Source: Candidatus Bathyarchaeota archaeon (lineage in GTDB: Archaea; Thermoproteota; Bathyarchaeia; Bathyarchaeales; Bathycorpusculaceae). From it: 64,000 bases of DNA. Position 1 is the first letter of the stretch; each line of letters begins with the position of its first letter. Shown in pieces: positions 1-53,977 of this stretch. Location: contig JAOZIE010000008.1 of NCBI GenBank assembly GCA_026014485.1, positions 224,716-288,715 of the forward strand, given 5' to 3'. The translations under genes were made by a program, and so were the position numbers. Below the pieces are notes generated by a model, which worked only from the letters and a program-made list of their open reading frames with translations, had not been told where the DNA came from and did not search any database.

Positions 1-1916
1 CACAACAAGGATTGAAACCATTCACCTTCTCGGTTTGAAAGGATTCTTCAGCGGTCCAAAAAGGTAATCCAACACAACAAGGATTGAAACTAGTTTGCTC
101 CTGAAACCTTAACTTGTGATTGTGGGGGTCCAAAAAGGTAATCCAACACAACAAGGATTGAAACTCTTAACACCACCAAAACAAAATAAAATATCACACG
201 TCCAAAAAGGTAATCCAACACAACAAGGATTGAAACACACATTTAGGCAGGCTTTTTTATGCAAAAAACATGTCCAAAAAGGTAATCCAACACAACAAGG
301 ATTGAAACTCTTTTTGTCTCGTGAAGTATTTCCAGAGTTAAACGTCCAAAAAGGTAATCCAACACAACAAGGATTGAAACAAAATCCAAATCACTATAAA
401 TGGTTCATAAATGGAGTCCAAAAAGGTAATCCAACACAACAAGGATTGAAACTGTAGCATTTGGAATTAACGTAACGTTGCTTGGTTGTCCAAAAAGGTA
501 ATCCAACACAACAAGGATTGAAACTTTCATCTGGTGTTTTTCCAGTTAACCGCGTCGAAGTCCAAAAAGGTAATCCAACACAACAAGGATTGAAACCTTT
601 CATCCTGGCAAGGCTACCATATTCAAGTGCGCGTCCAAAAAGGTAATCCAACACAACAAGGATTGAAACATTTTTTATTTAAAGAAATGTGGGTGATTTG
701 TTCAACGTCCAAAAAGGTAATCCAACACAACAAGGATTGAAACTTCATTTTTTCTCATTCCTCACTCTTATGTCATTTTTGTCCAAAAAGGTAATCCAAC
801 ACAACAAGGATTGAAACAGCCTTTGATTTCAATTTTAATTAGTCCGCGTGCGAGTCCAAAAAGGTAATCCAACACAACAAGGATTGAAACCTGGGATACC
901 GCCTCTGCTGGGGTCGATTTCGTAGTAGGTCCAAAAAGGTAATCCAACACAACAAGGATTGAAACAACAATAACGAACTCCGAGGTTGAAACAAAATGGG
1001 AGTCCAAAAAGGTAATCCAACACAACAAGGATTGAAACAAAGTCTCAGAAAAACAGAGAGCCGCTTATATCGCCGTCCAAAAAGGTAATCCAACACAACA
1101 AGGATTGAAACTAGTATGACAGACGAAGTGGTTTCAGCACTTCTCATGTCCAAAAAGGTAATCCAACACAACAAGGATTGAAACTTAAGTCAGGTTGTTT
1201 ATGTCGCTTTAGCCATTTGTCCAAAAAGGTAATCCAACACAACAAGGATTGAAACTAATATCAGTGTGCCCAAATCCTCCAGCGGAGAACGCCACAGTCC
1301 AAAAAGGTAATCCAACACAACAAGGATTGAAACTAGTATTCAGCGATGATGTCGTGTATATTGGTACCGTCCAAAAAGGTAATCCAACACAACAAGGATT
1401 GAAACTATACGCACATGATGGAGCATACGACGAAACTAACTGTCCAAAAAGGTAATCCAACACAACAAGGATTGAAACTACGCTTCCTTAGTCTTAACAT
1501 TCACCAATAGTCTCGTCCAAAAAGGTAATCCAACACAACAAGGATTGAAACTTCCGAACAGAGAATTTTCGTTTCCGATTTAAATCTGTCCAAAAAGGTA
1601 ATCCAACACAACAAGGATTGAAACAGTTTGCTGGAACGGGAGTTTCATGGAAAAAAATCGTCCAAAAAGGTAATCCAACACAACAAGGATTGAAACTTGA
1701 TGGTAACAAAATGCAACCCAGTTTTACCAACCGTCCAAAAAGGTAATCCAACACAACAAGGATTGAAACATGATTTCCTTAAAACCACAAGCCAACGCAA
1801 CATATGTCCAAAAAGGTAATCCAACACAACAAGGATTGAAACCTTTGGTTTTGGGGGATCGTACGCACCCGACTTCAGTGTCCAAAAAGGTAATCCAACA
1901 CAACAAGGATTGAAAC
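1..1916 (+). CRISPR. CRISPR array, 26 full repeats plus one cut by the window edge
   Basis: A 37-nt direct repeat starts GTCCAAAAAGG and ends AAGGATTGAAAC. Full copies begin at 54, 128, 200, 272, 344, 416, 488, 560, 633, 707, 781, 854, 929, 1002, 1075, 1148, 1219, 1297, 1369, 1442, 1515, 1588, 1660, 1733, 1806 and 1880; an 18-nt partial copy fills 1-18. I saw no variant copy. The 26 spacers are all different, 34-38 nt except one of 41 nt (1256-1296). The ATTGAAAC end is typical of the 3' end of class 1 (type I or III) repeats, whose last 8 nt become the crRNA 5' handle. Transcription is therefore probably left to right, with the leader outside the window. Each repeat can form a 5-bp AATCC/GGATT stem with a 10-nt loop. 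No cas gene is visible, so the subtype is open. Short reading frames across the array are repeat artefacts. Confidence 0.98.
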
Positions 1917-1978
1917 TGTTGCTCGTTTCACGCTCTTCTTTAGATAGTTGCATAGCTTAAACAGTTAATTTGTTTCAG

Positions 1979-2657
1979 AAGTAGTCGTCCTAACCATTTC
2001 TACGCCGACTACTACCAAAAGGTGAAGGCTTCGACTCAGAAACGGGTAAACGATTTTTATGATGCTTTAGAAGTAGTAGAACATAGAAAAAAATCACGTT
2101 CTACTACTTCTATTTAATTAGCTCTAAGGACCACAGAAATCAAGATTGTGCCTCCAAGCAACCAAAGAAGTCGATGCAGACATTCTACGGTAGATTTCAT
2201 TATAGCAATCAATTTACCGCATAGTAACCGCAGCCAAAGCTAAACATGAGCAAAAACAAAAGAAGAAAAACCATAAAACAACCAATTTTTCTTCTTATAA
2301 TCTCGATTCTACTTTTCGGCAGAAAATCGGGGGGAGTAGCATTGAAGAAGACATATATGCAACTTGGTTTCCTTCTCCTTTTAAATTACCGATGAAGCGT
2401 TAAAAAGAAGAAGAAACAACTTTTCAGCACGCTTCTTCTTCTACTTAAATCAGTGTTAATAAGCCTAAAAGAAGAACAACAACACGCTAATTTTTCGAAC
2501 TGTTGTTGTTCTTTTGAGCCGTTTAAAGCCAAAATTAAAAGAGGAAGAAGACAATTGGTGTGGTGCAAGCTTGTCTTCTTCTTTTTTCCTTTAATTCCAA
2601 AACGCGTTCAATGGAAAAGAAAAACAGGATTTGCCAAGGAAAGCAACCGTTTTTCTT
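1979..2657. repeat. Series of long inverted repeats in gene-free DNA beside the CRISPR array
   Basis: Inverted repeats (left arm / right arm): 1980-1987/2006-2013 (8 bp); 2068-2082/2098-2112 (15 bp, perfect); 2260-2270/2286-2296 (11 bp); 2406-2415/2433-2442 (10 bp); 2472-2484/2501-2513 (13 bp); 2544-2554/2571-2581 (11 bp, extendable with G-T pairs to about 17); 2617-2625/2649-2657 (9 bp, weaker). Five of them have loops of 15-17 nt. Left arms are purine-rich (GAAGAAG-like) and right arms pyrimidine-rich, but arm sequences differ between copies. The last four are centred about 70 nt apart. Both strands carry T-rich arms, so stacked bidirectional terminators between the array and the converging minus-strand gene are one explanation; a structured RNA or a DNA-structure element are others. 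No convincing gene lies in 1917-2760. Confidence 0.75.
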
Positions 2658-2760
2658 CTACAGAAAAAGAGGCAGTAGCAAAATAAAAAAATATTTTTTC
2701 CTGCATGCTGCCTTTTATTGTTTTATCAAGAGACGGGATAACAAAGTCTAATTAGTGGAG

Positions 2761-3552
2761 CTATTTTGTCTTTGCTTGCTTGCCGAATAACTGTATAGCC
2801 AGTTCTAGTATTGATGCTTCATGTTTTTCTTCCTCAAGCTCTTCCTGAGCTAACCGTTGTAACCTAAAATTTACAGTTGCTTTGGCATTATGCTTCATAA
2901 AGGGGATGGTTTCAAAGAAAAGTCGGTTAAACTCTCGTCTATAAGCATCTTGCAACCGCTCAATCATCTCCTGATGAGTCGAAGTCTCTCCTTTTTCTCT
3001 CGTATTAAGCATGTGACGCCCTCTTCCCATCGCCTTGGCTACTAGAATCAGATTATCATACGGTGGGGGTGGGTCTTCACAAATTATATGAGCAAGAATT
3101 GCATATACCGCTGCAATTTTTGGATAACGCTCAACTAGCCACTTGCTTTCTGCAAAAATTGCATATTTAAGTAACTTCCCTTGTCGGGCAAGAAACTCAA
3201 TAATTTCCTCTTGTGCCTCTTCATCGAAGTGTTTCCAGCGTTCCTCTATCTGGCTATCAGTCAACTCCAAATCTTGCCAATAAAGTGTGCTAGCAACATA
3301 GGTTACTGTCCCTACGAAGGTAAGGTAATATTGCTTTTTTGTTTGCTTCTTTTTGTGTTTACTTTGAACGTAGGTTATGGCGCCACGTTCGACCAGCTTG
3401 TTTAGGCAATAATGTATTGTTCCATGGCTTAATTTTGGAAATTGCTTGTAGAGGTCGTATTCTGTTTTGGGGCCTTGCTCTGCTAAAAAGTATAGAATAA
3501 GCTCTGTTTTTGGGATTTCTTCTTCGCCTGCATTTGCCTCATCAGCAGCCAT
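2761..3552 (-). CDS. Winged-helix transcriptional regulator, PadR/ArsR-like N-terminus
   Basis: 263 aa. Residues about 14-80 read as a winged helix: a helix beginning TELILYFLAEQGPKTEYDL, a recognition helix around LSHGTIHYCLNKLVERGAI, then a basic wing with SKHKKKQTKKQYYLT. The rest is long, mostly helical, and matches no family I can name; it may dimerise or sense something. A TATA-like sequence on the minus strand (3586-3597) sits about 35 nt before the ATG, which fits a short-leader transcript. It is divergent from the integrase cassette that starts near 3631 and shares its upstream region, so it could regulate that cassette. This role is an inference from position only. DNA binding is well supported; the target is unknown. 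Confidence 0.7.
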   Translation of the reverse strand: MAADEANAGEEEIPKTELILYFLAEQGPKTEYDLYKQFPKLSHGTIHYCLNKLVERGAITYVQSKHKKKQTKKQYYLTFVGTVTYVASTLYWQDLELTDSQIEERWKHFDEEAQEEIIEFLARQGKLLKYAIFAESKWLVERYPKIAAVYAILAHIICEDPPPPYDNLILVAKAMGRGRHMLNTREKGETSTHQEMIERLQDAYRREFNRLFFETIPFMKHNAKATVNFRLQRLAQEELEEEKHEASILELAIQLFGKQAKTK

Positions 3553-3585
3553 ATCTCAGTAACCAATTGGGATATGCTGAAACAT

Positions 3586-3597
3586 TGCTTAAATAAT
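3586..3597 (-). promoter_or_regulatory. TATA box for the wHTH regulator
   Basis: On the minus strand ATTATTTAAGC lies about 35 nt upstream of the ATG at 3552. AT-rich boxes at this distance are typical archaeal core promoters. Confidence 0.4.
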
Positions 3598-3630
3598 TAT
3601 CGACCAATATTATCTCATTCAACCGCTGAG

Positions 3631-3909
3631 ATGAACCAAATGGGTATTCCCAAAATCGTCGAGCATAAAATAATCACAATGCGAAAACGCGACGGCTCAA
3701 CACAATACACCCTAACTCTGCCAAAAGAGTTCGCTGAAACGCTAAGAAAAGAAGGAATCGACTCCCTATACATCGTCTTCGACAGAGGACTAGGCGCATT
3801 CCCAAAGATACCTGGCTTCACAGAAAAAGCACTAACCAAGTTCATGCAAGAACACGAAGAAATCCAAAAACTCTTCATAAACACAACTGAACACACTGGA
3901 GGCAACTAA
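3631..3909 (+). CDS. AbrB/SpoVT-like swapped-hairpin protein
   Basis: About 92 aa from the ATG at 3631; a further in-frame start at 3574 would add an unconvincing 19 residues. The core, VEHKIITMRKRDGSTQYTL followed by TLPKEFAETLRKEGID, has the pattern of a SpoVT/AbrB swapped-hairpin DNA-binding domain: a beta strand, a short turn, then LPKE starting a helix. It is followed by a short helical tail. Such proteins are archaeal transcription factors or antitoxins. It is the first gene of a short plus-strand run that leads into the integrase at 4300, with 16 nt to the next gene. This arrangement suggests a regulator belonging to an integrated element. No toxin partner is recognisable next to it. 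Confidence 0.6.
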   Translation: MNQMGIPKIVEHKIITMRKRDGSTQYTLTLPKEFAETLRKEGIDSLYIVFDRGLGAFPKIPGFTEKALTKFMQEHEEIQKLFINTTEHTGGN

Positions 3910-3925
3910 GAGAGCTTATTGTCTG

Positions 3926-4303
3926 GTGGACCTATTGGGTTGTCAGGCTTTTTCTTTGGGTTCTGCCGTTTACATCCGCTACAAAGACCACGTCCTATTC
4001 AGAAACCTTGAGCAGCCCATAGAAGAAGCAATAGAAAGAGAAACCATAGGTTGGCTATCAAAAGAAACAGACGAAATCCTTCTAGTTGAACATGACAGGA
4101 CAATGCCAAATCTACAAGTGGCAAGCGGTCAATGCAATGGATTGATTATTCTTAAGAGTTGCATACTCGAAATTCAGCCGATACTCTTACAAGAAAGTTC
4201 AAAGTGGCTTTTAAATTCCCAGAACGCTAAAGGTAAAGGTGAGTTCGCGCTTCAGCCAAAGAAGCGAAAAACTCCAAAAAACGGGACGGGAGCAAATAGA
4301 TGA
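3926..4303 (+). CDS. Hypothetical protein of integrase cassette
   Basis: 125 aa from a GTG start (3926). No family recognised. The first 90 residues are of mixed alpha/beta character; the last 25 are strongly basic (KKRKTPKNGTGANR), which suggests nucleic-acid contact. Its stop overlaps the ATG of the integrase gene by 4 nt (ATGA), so the two are probably translationally coupled. This makes it a candidate accessory factor for recombination, such as a directionality or DNA-bending protein; that is inference from position. The start is uncertain because no strong ribosome-binding site is visible and there is no ATG near the beginning. Confidence 0.5.
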   Translation: MDLLGCQAFSLGSAVYIRYKDHVLFRNLEQPIEEAIERETIGWLSKETDEILLVEHDRTMPNLQVASGQCNGLIILKSCILEIQPILLQESSKWLLNSQNAKGKGEFALQPKKRKTPKNGTGANR

Positions 4304-5685
4304 GAACCGTAACCATAACGGAGAGCTCCCGAGGCCACAAACTCCAAACACCACTGACTCTCACTTTGCCAGAAGCAGAAACAGCCGCAGACAAAAAACT
4401 CCAGCAATACATAATCGATGCCCTGCTAACAAGAATGCCCAGCCTAATAACCCTAACATTCGATAACACCACAGCTATAGAACTAGCCAAACACCTACTA
4501 AGACACAGAACAGGCAGCCCACAAACACTCTACCAGTACATCTATGGTGTCCACCGCTTTTGCCTATGGACCAACTCTCAACCAGACCAACTAGTCAAAA
4601 CCTGCAAAGATGAAGACGGCGACCCCAACCCTAAAGCTCTATCACAAACCAGCCGCATGATAGACGATTTCATAGCAAACCTACAAGCCGAAAACTTAGC
4701 TCCCGGAACAATAGGCAACCACGTCAAAGGCGTCAAAGCCCTATTCCGATGCAATAACCTAAAACTCGAACTGCCCTATAGCCTAAGCAAAAGAGTAATC
4801 TACGAAGACCGAGCGCCATCACCTGAAGAACTACAGAAAACCTTAGACATCGCCGACCTGCGAGAACGAGTAATAATAACGCTCTTAGCACTCGGTGGAT
4901 TCCGCATCGGCACTCTATCTAAGCTGCAGTACCGCCATGTCAAGCGAGACCTAGAAAACGGCATAATCCCAATCCACATCCATGTCGAATCAGAAATAAC
5001 CAAAGGCAAATACCATGACTACGATACTTTCATAGGACAAGAAGCAGCCGAATACCTAAAAGCGTACTTGGATATACGCAGGCAAGGCAGCCCAACTGGC
5101 AGAAAACACCCTGAAATAATCAACGACAACTCGCCACTAATCCGAGATGGACAAAGCAACATCGTCAAACCCATAACTACTGGCAGAATCCACTCAATCA
5201 TCCACAACCTCTACGTCAAAGCAGGATTAGTAACCCAAAACCCCCGAGGAAGACGCTATGATCTAAGAGCACACAGCATACGCAAATACTTCAGAACCCA
5301 GCTAGCATCATTAGGCATCCAAACAGATTACAGCGAATATATGATGGGGCACACAATCAGCACCTACCACGACATACGCATGAAAGGCACAGAATTCCTC
5401 AGAGGCGTTTACATCTCCTCAGGGCTGAGCATAAGACCAAAAACACGACTAAACAAACTTGACGCACTCAAAGAACTAATACGCGCATGGGGTTTAAACC
5501 CTGACCAAGTTCTATCTAAAGAAGCACTACTGCAATCCAACGCAACAGTCATCGACCGAGCACAGCTTGAACAGACACAAATCATGCAGCTTACCGCCGC
5601 TCTTAAACAGCAGATGATTAAGGAAATCAAAGAGAGCCAGTTTGAAAAAAGTACAAATCCATGCCGAGGAGGATATAGCCCGTGA
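4300..5685 (+). CDS. Tyrosine recombinase / integrase adjoining tRNA-Gln
   Basis: 461 aa. The N-terminal core-binding region (about 60-160) is helical and SAM-like. The catalytic domain follows: Arg202 in GGFRIGTLSKL, Lys235 in EITKGK, His325 and Arg328 in HSIRKYFRTQ, and His351 in MMGHT. The nucleophile is Tyr356 (STYHDI) or Tyr371 (GVYISS); spacing from His351 does not decide between them. A helical tail of about 80 residues follows. The last codons lie inside the 3' end of the tRNA-Gln gene on the other strand, the usual geometry when an archaeal element integrates into a tRNA 3' end. All catalytic positions are filled, so the enzyme may be active. The gene overlaps its upstream neighbour by 4 nt. 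Confidence 0.85.
   Translation: MRTVTITESSRGHKLQTPLTLTLPEAETAADKKLQQYIIDALLTRMPSLITLTFDNTTAIELAKHLLRHRTGSPQTLYQYIYGVHRFCLWTNSQPDQLVKTCKDEDGDPNPKALSQTSRMIDDFIANLQAENLAPGTIGNHVKGVKALFRCNNLKLELPYSLSKRVIYEDRAPSPEELQKTLDIADLRERVIITLLALGGFRIGTLSKLQYRHVKRDLENGIIPIHIHVESEITKGKYHDYDTFIGQEAAEYLKAYLDIRRQGSPTGRKHPEIINDNSPLIRDGQSNIVKPITTGRIHSIIHNLYVKAGLVTQNPRGRRYDLRAHSIRKYFRTQLASLGIQTDYSEYMMGHTISTYHDIRMKGTEFLRGVYISSGLSIRPKTRLNKLDALKELIRAWGLNPDQVLSKEALLQSNATVIDRAQLEQTQIMQLTAALKQQMIKEIKESQFEKSTNPCRGGYSP
5676..5685. other. Probable attachment site: integrase 3' end overlaps tRNA-Gln 3' end
   Basis: The last 10 nt of the integrase gene are also the discriminator and the 3' acceptor strand of tRNA-Gln read on the other strand. 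Archaeal tyrosine recombinases commonly use tRNA 3' ends as att sites. I did not see a second copy of the tRNA 3' end to the left within this window, so the other end of the element, if it still exists, lies outside or has decayed. Confidence 0.5.
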
Positions 5686-5748
5686 GAGATTCGAACTCTC
5701 GTCAATGGCTCCAAAGGCCACTATGCTTGACCACTACACCAACGGGCT
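5676..5748 (-). tRNA. tRNA-Gln (anticodon TTG)
   Basis: On the minus strand the sequence folds as a full cloverleaf. The acceptor pairs AGCCCGT with ACGGGCT, the anticodon stem is GTGGC/GCCAT with loop CTTTGGA (anticodon TTG), and the T arm is GAGAG-TTCGAAT-CTCTC. The discriminator is A and CCA is not encoded. There is no intron. Confidence 0.93.
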
Positions 5749-6085
5749 TCTTTAAGCTCTCCTCAGATAATTTCTCAGCTTCCTAATAAATCTCCCATTA
5801 CGGAACCTAAAAATCTGGCTTTTAGGGTCGCGCCTTCCAGGTTGGAAGTGGGTGTGTGGCGGTGCGTTTGGGGTGTTTGTTATTGAGAAGGTTTTTAAGG
5901 TGCCTGTGTATACTTTTAGTTGTGAGTTCTGACACTGAATCTTCTTCTCTAAACCACAAACCTTTTATATAAGGTCTGTGCCTCTGCTAAGAATGCGCGG
6001 GCCGAATATACACTTTTCTCAGCCCCTATATTAAGGGAATGATGATGCTGTAGAGGTTTTGCGCAGGCGAAATGGAGTCGGAAAA
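5749..6085. promoter_or_regulatory. Gene-free region with TATA boxes upstream of TFB
   Basis: About 340 bp without a gene. On the plus strand CCTTTTATATAAGG (5961-5974) is a strong TATA element, and a second, CCCCTATATTAAGGG (6025-6039), lies closer to the TFB start. Use of the first would give a leader of roughly 90 nt, unusually long for archaea; the second would give a short one. The minus strand must hold the tRNA-Gln promoter just above 5749. Confidence 0.5.
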
Positions 6086-34443: not shown

Positions 34444-34707
34444 GCGAGTGCACCTAAAGTGTGTTATTGAATCGGCGGTTTTAGAGTTTTGCCTAATAAC
34501 CCCGTTTGCAGCAGCCATGTATTGTGACTTGCAAGTGGCTTTTCTGCTAAGAATCGGCGTTGATTTGTCTTCTGAAGAGTTTTCCGCGGGAAAGTTTGTT
34601 CTGAAAGGCTGGGCAACAGATTTTTCTGGTTTTGCTTCATGGAGTACAGTTTTACACAAAACTTTATTATGTCGCCTAGCGTTTTGCATGATAAAAGGTG
34701 CAACAAA

Positions 34708-53026: not shown

Positions 53027-53977
53027 TTAAGCTGGTTTTTTGAAGTACCATGTTCCGTTTTCGTGTCCGACTAAGATGCAGTCGTCTTTGATGGCTTGTT
53101 GGATTTCTTCGTCTGTTGTGCATTTTATGGGTATCCATGTTATGTTTGCTTCAGTGTCGATGTATTGAATTGTTGCTCTTAGGTCGTGTTCTTTGTGTCC
53201 TAATGTGTGAGCAACTTCTAAGATTTTTCCGCCTGATATGTGGTATGTTCTTGTTCCTTTGAAGCGTCTAAAGTCATAGAGTTGGACTTGTTTTAATTCG
53301 GGTCTGTTGGTGACTTTTGCTAAGTTGTTTCGTGCATGTCTGTATTCTTGGCTTAGGTTGTCGGACGTTGTTGGAAAAATTAAATTTTCTGAGTTTAGGT
53401 TGTTCCGTTGAATCAGTCTTTTTAGCAGTTCTATTGATTTTTGTTTAAGTTTGCCTTCTCGTCCGATTGTGTGTTTTGCTCCTGTTAGTGATGTTGCTCC
53501 TGTGGATAGGTCAATGTCTTTTACTTTTAGCCATGTTAATTCGATAGGTCTGTTTCCTAGGTCTTTGTGCATTGATAATTTGAGGTTTAGTGGAAAGTTG
53601 ACGTTGTCTATTATGAAGTTTATTAGTTCTTCTTTTGGTGCTCGGCGTTTTTTCCGTTTTCTTTGGTAAAATGGTTTTTTCCAGTTTAGTCCGAGTGATT
53701 GTATGACTTTGTCGTATGCTTCGGCTAAATTTTCTTTTCTTCCTGCTTCGCATTTTTTGTTTGATATGAATAGTTTTACTTCTTCGGGTTTTCTGCTGTC
53801 ACAATGGCGAATGATATGTTTTAATTCTTTCATTACTCGTTTGATTGTGGTTTCTTCATAGGCTTCTTTTTTCATCCAGATTTGGACGTTGGTTAAGTTT
53901 ATGTTTCCTATATCTTGGGGGTCTTTGGTTTCTTGTTGGAGTTGTTCCAACAACTGTTTGACTAATTCTTTTTTCAT
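53027..53977 (-). CDS. Tyrosine recombinase
   Basis: 316 aa. N-terminal helical core-binding region (1-115) followed by the catalytic domain: Arg in LGNRPIELTWLKV, a Lys near TGAKHTIGREGK, RRF in LYDFRRFKGTRTYH (a Tyr-Asp-Phe-Arg variant of the HxxR box), His in TLGHKEH and Tyr in ATIQYID. It belongs to the XerC/D-like superfamily, of the archaeal sort often found in integrated or integron-like elements. There is no tRNA directly beside it. The region above it (53978-54257) holds a 12-bp stem-loop. AT-rich codon use differs from nearby core genes. Confidence 0.82.
   Translation of the reverse strand: MKKELVKQLLEQLQQETKDPQDIGNINLTNVQIWMKKEAYEETTIKRVMKELKHIIRHCDSRKPEEVKLFISNKKCEAGRKENLAEAYDKVIQSLGLNWKKPFYQRKRKKRRAPKEELINFIIDNVNFPLNLKLSMHKDLGNRPIELTWLKVKDIDLSTGATSLTGAKHTIGREGKLKQKSIELLKRLIQRNNLNSENLIFPTTSDNLSQEYRHARNNLAKVTNRPELKQVQLYDFRRFKGTRTYHISGGKILEVAHTLGHKEHDLRATIQYIDTEANITWIPIKCTTDEEIQQAIKDDCILVGHENGTWYFKKPA

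Follow-up and report, generated by a model that had tools for sequence, protein, structure and literature searches.

The left end of a 64,000-nucleotide stretch of a Candidatus Bathyarchaeota archaeon genome (assembly GCA_026014485.1, contig JAOZIE010000008.1; here genome G000, contig C23) very probably belongs to an integrated mobile element of 21 kb, of which it is the tRNA-proximal end: a genomic island that entered at the 3' end of a tRNA-Gln(TTG) gene and whose recognised cargo is mainly defence, including a complete type I-B CRISPR-Cas system. The whole stretch analysed, called the window, is G000:C23:224716-288715, and the whole element is G000:C23:209385-230402 (21,018 bp); positions given without a contig are those of the window. 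The island looks like an archaeal immune system on a vehicle able to move it, and the insertion of this foreign DNA was most likely performed by the recombinase encoded in the window. The features at the junction, where att denotes an attachment site, GC the guanine-plus-cytosine content and aa amino acids, are as follows.

5676-5748, minus strand: tRNA-Gln(TTG), the chromosomal target gene, with no encoded CCA now (ARAGORN; comparison with 13 other loci).
5676-5687: tRNA-side att core TAGCCCGTGAGA, the 3' end of tRNA-Gln, with its twin at C23:209385-209396.
1-5687: the part of the element inside the window, delimited by 12-bp direct repeats at both ends of the element and by GC contrast.
4300-5685, plus strand: tyrosine recombinase (integrase), 461 aa (Pfam Phage_integrase 3.6e-10; PHROGs integrase 7.2e-16; Foldseek XerA 1.9e-8).
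3926-4303, plus strand: basic integrase-partner protein, 125 aa, overlapping the integrase gene by 4 nt and predicted to form a small beta-barrel.

An earlier reading of this DNA from its letters alone (the sequence-only reading) proposed an element integrated at a tRNA att site, with a basic protein of unknown function followed by a tyrosine recombinase that ends inside tRNA-Gln. Both genes were recovered. The integrase open reading frame (ORF) shares 10 nt with the tRNA 3' end, its codons Tyr-Ser-Pro-stop occupy 5674-5685, and the stop codon thus falls inside the att core. The far end had been described as not visible, and the leftward search for a repeat of the tRNA 3' end that the same reading suggested placed the second att copy outside the window, 21 kb to the left on the parent contig, at C23:209385. 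In the whole 2,366,298-bp genome the 12-mer TAGCCCGTGAGA has two forward copies and no reverse copy (control, 0), and no third core occurs inside the island with up to 2 mismatches allowed. By length alone a 12-bp match is about what chance would give for a 160-bp query against 235 kb, and no direct repeat of at least 14 bp links window 5601-5760 to any other part of C23 1-235000. A chance match was dropped as an explanation after the core had been defined in sister elements and the displaced CCA had been seen. In fact, the far repeat is accepted as an att site because the same acceptor-end stretch is paired in sister elements, the 12-mer is unique to the two sites in the genome, and the displaced CCA and flank match a congener, G006.

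Read in the tRNA sense, the far copy consists of the core, CCA and ACACCTAA, that is, TCTCACGGGCTA followed by CCAACACCTAA, and it is identical at 23 of 23 positions to G006 across the tRNA-Gln 3' end of that genome. The tRNA-Gln of G000 runs straight into element DNA without CCA. CCA is encoded after the discriminator base in 10 of the 13 other tRNA-Gln loci compared, and in 5 of the 6 congeners. Since the far copy carries the G006-like CCA and flank that the G000 tRNA lacks, the insertion moved the encoded CCA, together with its flank, 21 kb away. In the proposed mechanism, the integrase at the junction, together with the basic barrel protein from the gene just upstream, would recombine the 12-bp core of the tRNA acceptor end with the same core on a presumably circular form of the element. 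Recombination would rebuild the tRNA, carry the original CCA, with the DNA that followed it, to the far end and place the element between them; the CRISPR-Cas system would have been imported in this way from a related genus, or from a source common to both, and the element may still be mobile today.

Two known types of integration were considered and rejected. An SSV-type suicidal integrase, in which att lies inside the integrase gene and the gene is split, does not fit one 461-codon ORF with only its stop and last codons in the core. A casposon, in which Cas1 serves as integrase without other cas genes, does not fit a Cas1 that stands in a full cas operon with an array, in an element whose ends are tRNA direct repeats. 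A further explanation is that the integrase is a domesticated chromosomal recombinase residing at tRNA-Gln as part of a fixed host gene set, with the 12-bp repeat arising by chance. The lack of mobility genes would agree with it, and related recombinases are common in the order, 59 of 100 genomes having matches when own and remote recombinases are counted. It is nonetheless highly improbable: the repeat is genome-unique and was then found to carry the displaced CCA and flank, no integrase match occurs at the tRNA-Gln of six congeners, and the integrase family is found at Gln, Asn, Arg and Lys tRNAs with differing cargo.

The host site was compared with relatives, as the sequence-only reading had also advised. 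In all six congeners tRNA-Gln lies near genes for TFB, a zinc protein and SUI1, and an integrase match was found in 0 of the 6 fetched stretches; the same three genes are therefore not a constant accompaniment of this tRNA, and a second att copy is present in G000. Integrases or integrase fragments lie near the same tRNA-Gln in other genomes of the family (G019, G009 and G026), which marks the gene as a recurrent target. Pairing an occupied with an unoccupied site by gene order was tried and failed: the genes that we take to be L15e and SUI1 are not neighbours in the five congeners that have both, and G003 has no L15e match. The block running from L15e to a presumed homocitrate-synthase-like gene, hcs410 (L043, C23:204519-209089), lies beside the far att and is inverted relative to a gene that we regard as rubrerythrin-like, compared with the four congeners that show both.

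The island has a GC content of 41.1%, against 45.6-52.0% in 227 equally long sliding windows elsewhere on C23. Its cargo, ordered from the left, comprises a 346-aa protein with a weak RPA_C match, AbiEi, AbiEii, two PF10107 nucleases, the type I-B operon, the CRISPR array, hairpins and a regulator. The sequence-only reading had allowed that the array or the hairpin DNA might lie inside the element, and both do lie between the two att copies. The principal features are these.

C23:214478-222800, left of the window: type I-B cas operon (PADLOC, NCBIfam, Pfam).
1-1916: distal part of the CRISPR array, the whole of which is C23:222937-226631.
2067-2585: cluster of five hairpins (stems of at least 12, at most 1 mismatch) between array and regulator.
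2761-3552, minus strand: winged-helix regulator-like protein, 263 aa (Pfam PadR 4.7e-4 and TFIIE_alpha 1.8e-4, both below curated cut-offs).

AbiEi and AbiEii, a toxin-antitoxin pair, were matched by PADLOC at 1e-53 and 1.2e-60, and the two PF10107 proteins, which are Holliday-resolvase-like endonucleases, lie between AbiEii and the cas operon. The operon reads Cas8b1, Cas7b, Cas5b, Cas3, Cas6, Cas1, Cas2, Cas4. PADLOC matched the effector proteins as Cas8b1 (9.4e-129), Cas7b (1.9e-34), Cas5b (2.3e-25), Cas3b (4.1e-82) and Cas6 (4.1e-51). Counting against the type I-B label, NCBIfam gave no Cas8 or Cas6 match and its type I-B Cas7 and Cas5 models stayed below their cut-offs, and Pfam gave no match for Cas8. 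The adaptation genes Cas1, Cas2 and Cas4 and the array are all present in the island, and its immunity may be active; the array has 51 identical 37-bp repeats and 50 spacers, 49 of them distinct. As side observations, five hairpins with stems of at least 12 fall within 900 bp (2067-2585, and 2612-2662), against 2 in window 4001-64000; several begin about 70 nt apart, near the CRISPR period, and a comparable cluster occurs in no other fetched locus of at least 8 kb. An AbiEi/AbiEii pair is also found at L059:14658-16035, at most 10 kb from a related integrase at tRNA-Asn in G007, as a shared cargo type.

The distribution of the cas system is sporadic. Relatives of Cas8b are found in 11 of 299 other genomes (12 of 300 including G000): in none of the six congeners, in ten genomes of another genus, g12, and in one g32 genome. 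A Cas1 search of the genus gave one match in G000, which lies inside the island. The cas gene order is identical in nine fetched g12 loci. In a concatenated tree of five Cas proteins rooted on G037, G000 groups with G129 (support 91) nested in a clade (support 100), and the g12 member G127 falls outside that clade. The broken copy of G124 was omitted from the tree, Cas6 was reduced to 2 residues in G119 and to 4 in G051, and Cas3 of G125 is partial; the entries G129 and G100 represent a single genome, and the contamination listed for G129 is 9%. One host protein, presumably aRF1, shows 84-92% identity to the six congeners and 80-82% to eight g12 orthologues, a range from which G105 was left out, having a paralogue only (37%). 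Since the Cas tree and this host-protein identity conflict, the cas system is best read, on sequence comparison, as acquired horizontally from a g12-like source; identity levels alone would be insufficient for this.

Several findings weigh against the island reading. CCA loss by itself is not diagnostic, for G005 has no integrase at tRNA-Gln yet also lacks CCA. The match to the pre-insertion site comprises an 11-nt flank (CCA plus 8 nt) and is seen in G006 alone; among the other congeners four share only CCA with the far copy and G005 shares 1 nt. The gene order beyond the far att is the same in no congener seen, the L15e block being inverted and not adjoining tRNA-Gln; in G000 the chromosome has been rearranged on the outer side of the far att, and therefore the exact unoccupied arrangement occurs in no relative. 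No transfer, replication or virion genes were recognised in the element; capsid, terminase and tail genes likewise were not recognised among the proteins scanned, with PHROGs applied to 7 proteins and Pfam, PADLOC or NCBIfam to all listed ORFs of at least 80 aa outside the array. Furthermore, none of the 50 spacers was matched over 70% of its length in 2,601,599 bases of 206 fetched, partly overlapping loci. For the acquisition of the cas system, the identities to G129 (Cas8 68%, Cas1 84%, Cas2 97%) are not clearly higher than those of host proteins (79 and 81%), and the branches of the Cas tree are not short. On both counts the transfer was not of very recent date, and congeners may have lost the system.

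These identities bear on another explanation, that the CRISPR-Cas system is an ancient resident of the family which the six congeners sampled have lost, the element having inserted beside or around it. The Cas identities near those of host proteins would suit this history, and turnover is common, as full-length Cas1 matches occur elsewhere in three of the six congeners (G004-G006) and a partial one in G003. Against it, the system lies between the two att copies, Cas8b is found in 0 of 6 congeners and is concentrated in one other genus, and the Cas tree nests G000 inside g12; such residence is accordingly judged improbable. The composition of the island is also uneven, since the integrase (46.4%) and the leftmost gene (48.1%) have host-like GC and the cargo from AbiE to the basic protein has 35.9-42.7%. 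This pattern, of host-like end genes with low-GC cargo between them, would agree with a composite island, in which a small integrase element and a separately gained CRISPR-Cas/AbiE segment accreted at the tRNA and an internal att was lost, the CRISPR-Cas system never having travelled with the integrase as a unit. Tandem elements at one tRNA-Gln in G019 and the presence of a single integrase for 21 kb are in its favour. So is the finding that the Cas proteins of the island had matches by tblastn in 0 of 116 fetched loci (related integrases with flanks, partly overlapping), an absence that is weak as the flanks are at most 10 kb for many. Such accretion is rather unlikely, as there is no third core inside the island even with up to 2 mismatches, and low GC is common to cargo, array and regulator as far as the basic-protein gene. 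Integration of the island as one element remains the preferred reading.

The integrase belongs to a family found mainly in Bathyarchaeota. Its predicted fold is nearest to archaeal XerA (Foldseek E=1.9e-8). Tyr356 and Tyr371 are both invariant in the family and are two candidates for the catalytic tyrosine; by the position rule applied here, there is no tyrosine at +9 after the MGH motif. Related integrases occupy 88 loci, of which 79 are in named genomes (the kept part of 90 relatives) and 9 in viral contigs; most are recorded as Bathyarchaeota, and the remaining loci as Hadesarchaea, Thermoproteota, Nitrososphaerota and others. The integrase 3' end faces the tRNA 3' end at Gln, Asn, Arg and Lys genes, and ARAGORN found a tRNA at the integrase 3' end in 9 of the 88 loci, many contigs ending nearby. 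At several other loci (e.g. G086, G005, G001) a putative tRNA-3'-like sequence, read by eye, lies in the opposite orientation.

Paired direct cores were found at three other tRNA-Gln elements, at 34544/48430 in G019, 719995/736949 in G086 and 209969/220553 in G043. The DNA between the paired cores encodes a D5-type primase in G043 and in G019, and in G086 it encodes a type I restriction system. Locus L132 is reversed, with the tRNA upstream, the integrase at the far end and 15-bp repeats 6.8 kb apart. In L096, where the integrase is 87% identical and stands at the same tRNA-Gln with TFB, no second exact core copy occurs on that contig. A G019 contig carries terminase, neck and tail genes 11-19 kb from a 70% identical integrase; this is probably a tailed provirus, whose far end was not located. 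Two integrase ORFs of G019 (L046, L048) read across the att core, in comparison with the stop codon inside the core of G000, and the C-terminal tail therefore depends on DNA beyond the site. A AATTTATAC motif, a candidate arm site or promoter, is seen about 20 bp inside the core in four of six element left ends (e.g. C23:209385 onward), as a variant in G086, and is lacking at one G019 site. C-terminal-only integrase fragments (about residues 279-445) with 64% identity occur at L055:14466-14966 and L062:7990-8490 in G086 and G071, with a similar one in G080; these may be relics or a small separate protein. The window itself holds a second tyrosine recombinase ORF at 53027-53977 on the minus strand (316 aa, Pfam Phage_integrase 1.3e-6).

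The 125-aa basic protein is a near-constant companion of the integrase. Among the 88 loci, 50 were counted as full-length (integrase ORF of at least 400 codons, more than 700 bases upstream, E<1e-60), and 46 of these 50 have a relative of the basic protein immediately before the integrase, the exceptions being L126, L164, L177 and L178. Six residues are invariant in 49 sequences. The AlphaFold2 prediction has five strands in a confident core, followed by a low-confidence basic C-terminal tail. Fold comparison gave GerQ at Z 7.9, Hfq at Z 7.5 (2.7 A over 61 residues) and many Hfq/Sm proteins at about 7, values below those at which a fold by itself would be diagnostic; Foldseek gave no match at E<=0.001, and the sequence found nothing better than E=0.61 among solved structures. 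The position, conservation and basic tail of the protein suggest that it may have an accessory DNA-binding or directionality role. Upstream of it lies the remaining gene of the plus-strand run.

3631-3909, plus strand: 92-aa protein, family unassigned.

The sequence-only reading had called this protein AbrB-like and joined it with the other two in a three-gene integrase cassette. The AbrB label was rejected: a Pfam search to E=1 gave one weak, unrelated match for the 92-aa ORF, an 86-aa version gave none to E=10, and PHROGs gave none to E=0.05. As for the cassette, the run of three plus-strand ORFs ending at the tRNA is real, but the 92-aa gene is not conserved, with tblastn matches in 0 of 20 relatives' loci and 0 of the 116 fetched ones. 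The cassette is a two-gene module, basic protein and integrase, beside a neighbour that varies.

Archaeal integrated elements with type I-B CRISPR-Cas are already known from Thaumarchaeota, and the island is a well-resolved further case. The available text of a Thaumarchaeota survey describes two cryptic integrated elements, NitVie-E4 and NitEve-E4, in which arrays accompany complete sets of type I-B cas genes; the att sites of the survey are mostly short and often in tRNA 3' ends (PMC6563490). The island resembles these two in being an archaeal integrated element that combines an array with a complete set of type I-B cas genes, and a Holliday-junction resolvase and a winged-helix protein, as found here, are likewise marked in a figure legend of the survey (PMC6563490). 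It differs in its archaeal group, in its related-genus source as opposed to the distinct sources inferred for the two thaumarchaeal systems, in the added AbiE and in the conserved integrase partner, of which the accessible part of the survey makes no mention for its elements (PMC6563490). According to the available text of a review, characterised archaeal integrases act without a directionality factor, with SNJ2 modulated by two proteins (PMC8371274). The present integrase is like the classical, non-suicidal archaeal tyrosine recombinases treated there in that its gene is intact after integration, and unlike them in that its partner gene is nearly always present (PMC8371274). Tailed proviruses and viruses of Bathyarchaeia with integrases, some carrying defence or CRISPR parts, appear in the accessible portions of three reports (PMC11705971, PMC10848311, PMC11697101). 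The G019 contig, with tailed-virus genes beside an integrase of the same family, is akin to these; the island differs from them in its complete type I-B system and in that none of its genes was recognised as a virion gene. Tycheposons, and tRNA-targeted cargo islands, are elements described in bacteria, in which a tyrosine recombinase adjoins a tRNA, the cargo is exchangeable and transfer genes are not obvious. By description only, the island is similar to them in its tRNA-side recombinase and swappable cargo. In the titles and abstract openings of the papers listed, neither a complete type I-B system on a tRNA-integrated Bathyarchaeia element nor this integrase partner was found, which is not proof of absence.

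The integration module is possibly new, and its near-constant partner gene offers a way to test the view, as stated in the available text, that archaeal integrases need no helper factors (PMC8371274). More tentatively, as an idea somewhat less likely than not to hold, Bathyarchaeia and their neighbours might share a standard two-gene module, a tyrosine integrase with an obligate Sm/SH3-like barrel partner as accessory or directionality subunit. This module would serve as an interchangeable vehicle for tailed viruses, primase plasmids, restriction islands and CRISPR-Cas islands, and would ferry complete adaptive immunity between archaeal genera. Whole CRISPR-Cas systems are patchily distributed, and to our knowledge a vehicle for them is seldom seen with both ends resolved. 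In conclusion, the att sites, the displaced tRNA end, the integrase and the likely source genus are all visible here, so that transfer of a complete type I-B system into this species becomes directly testable.

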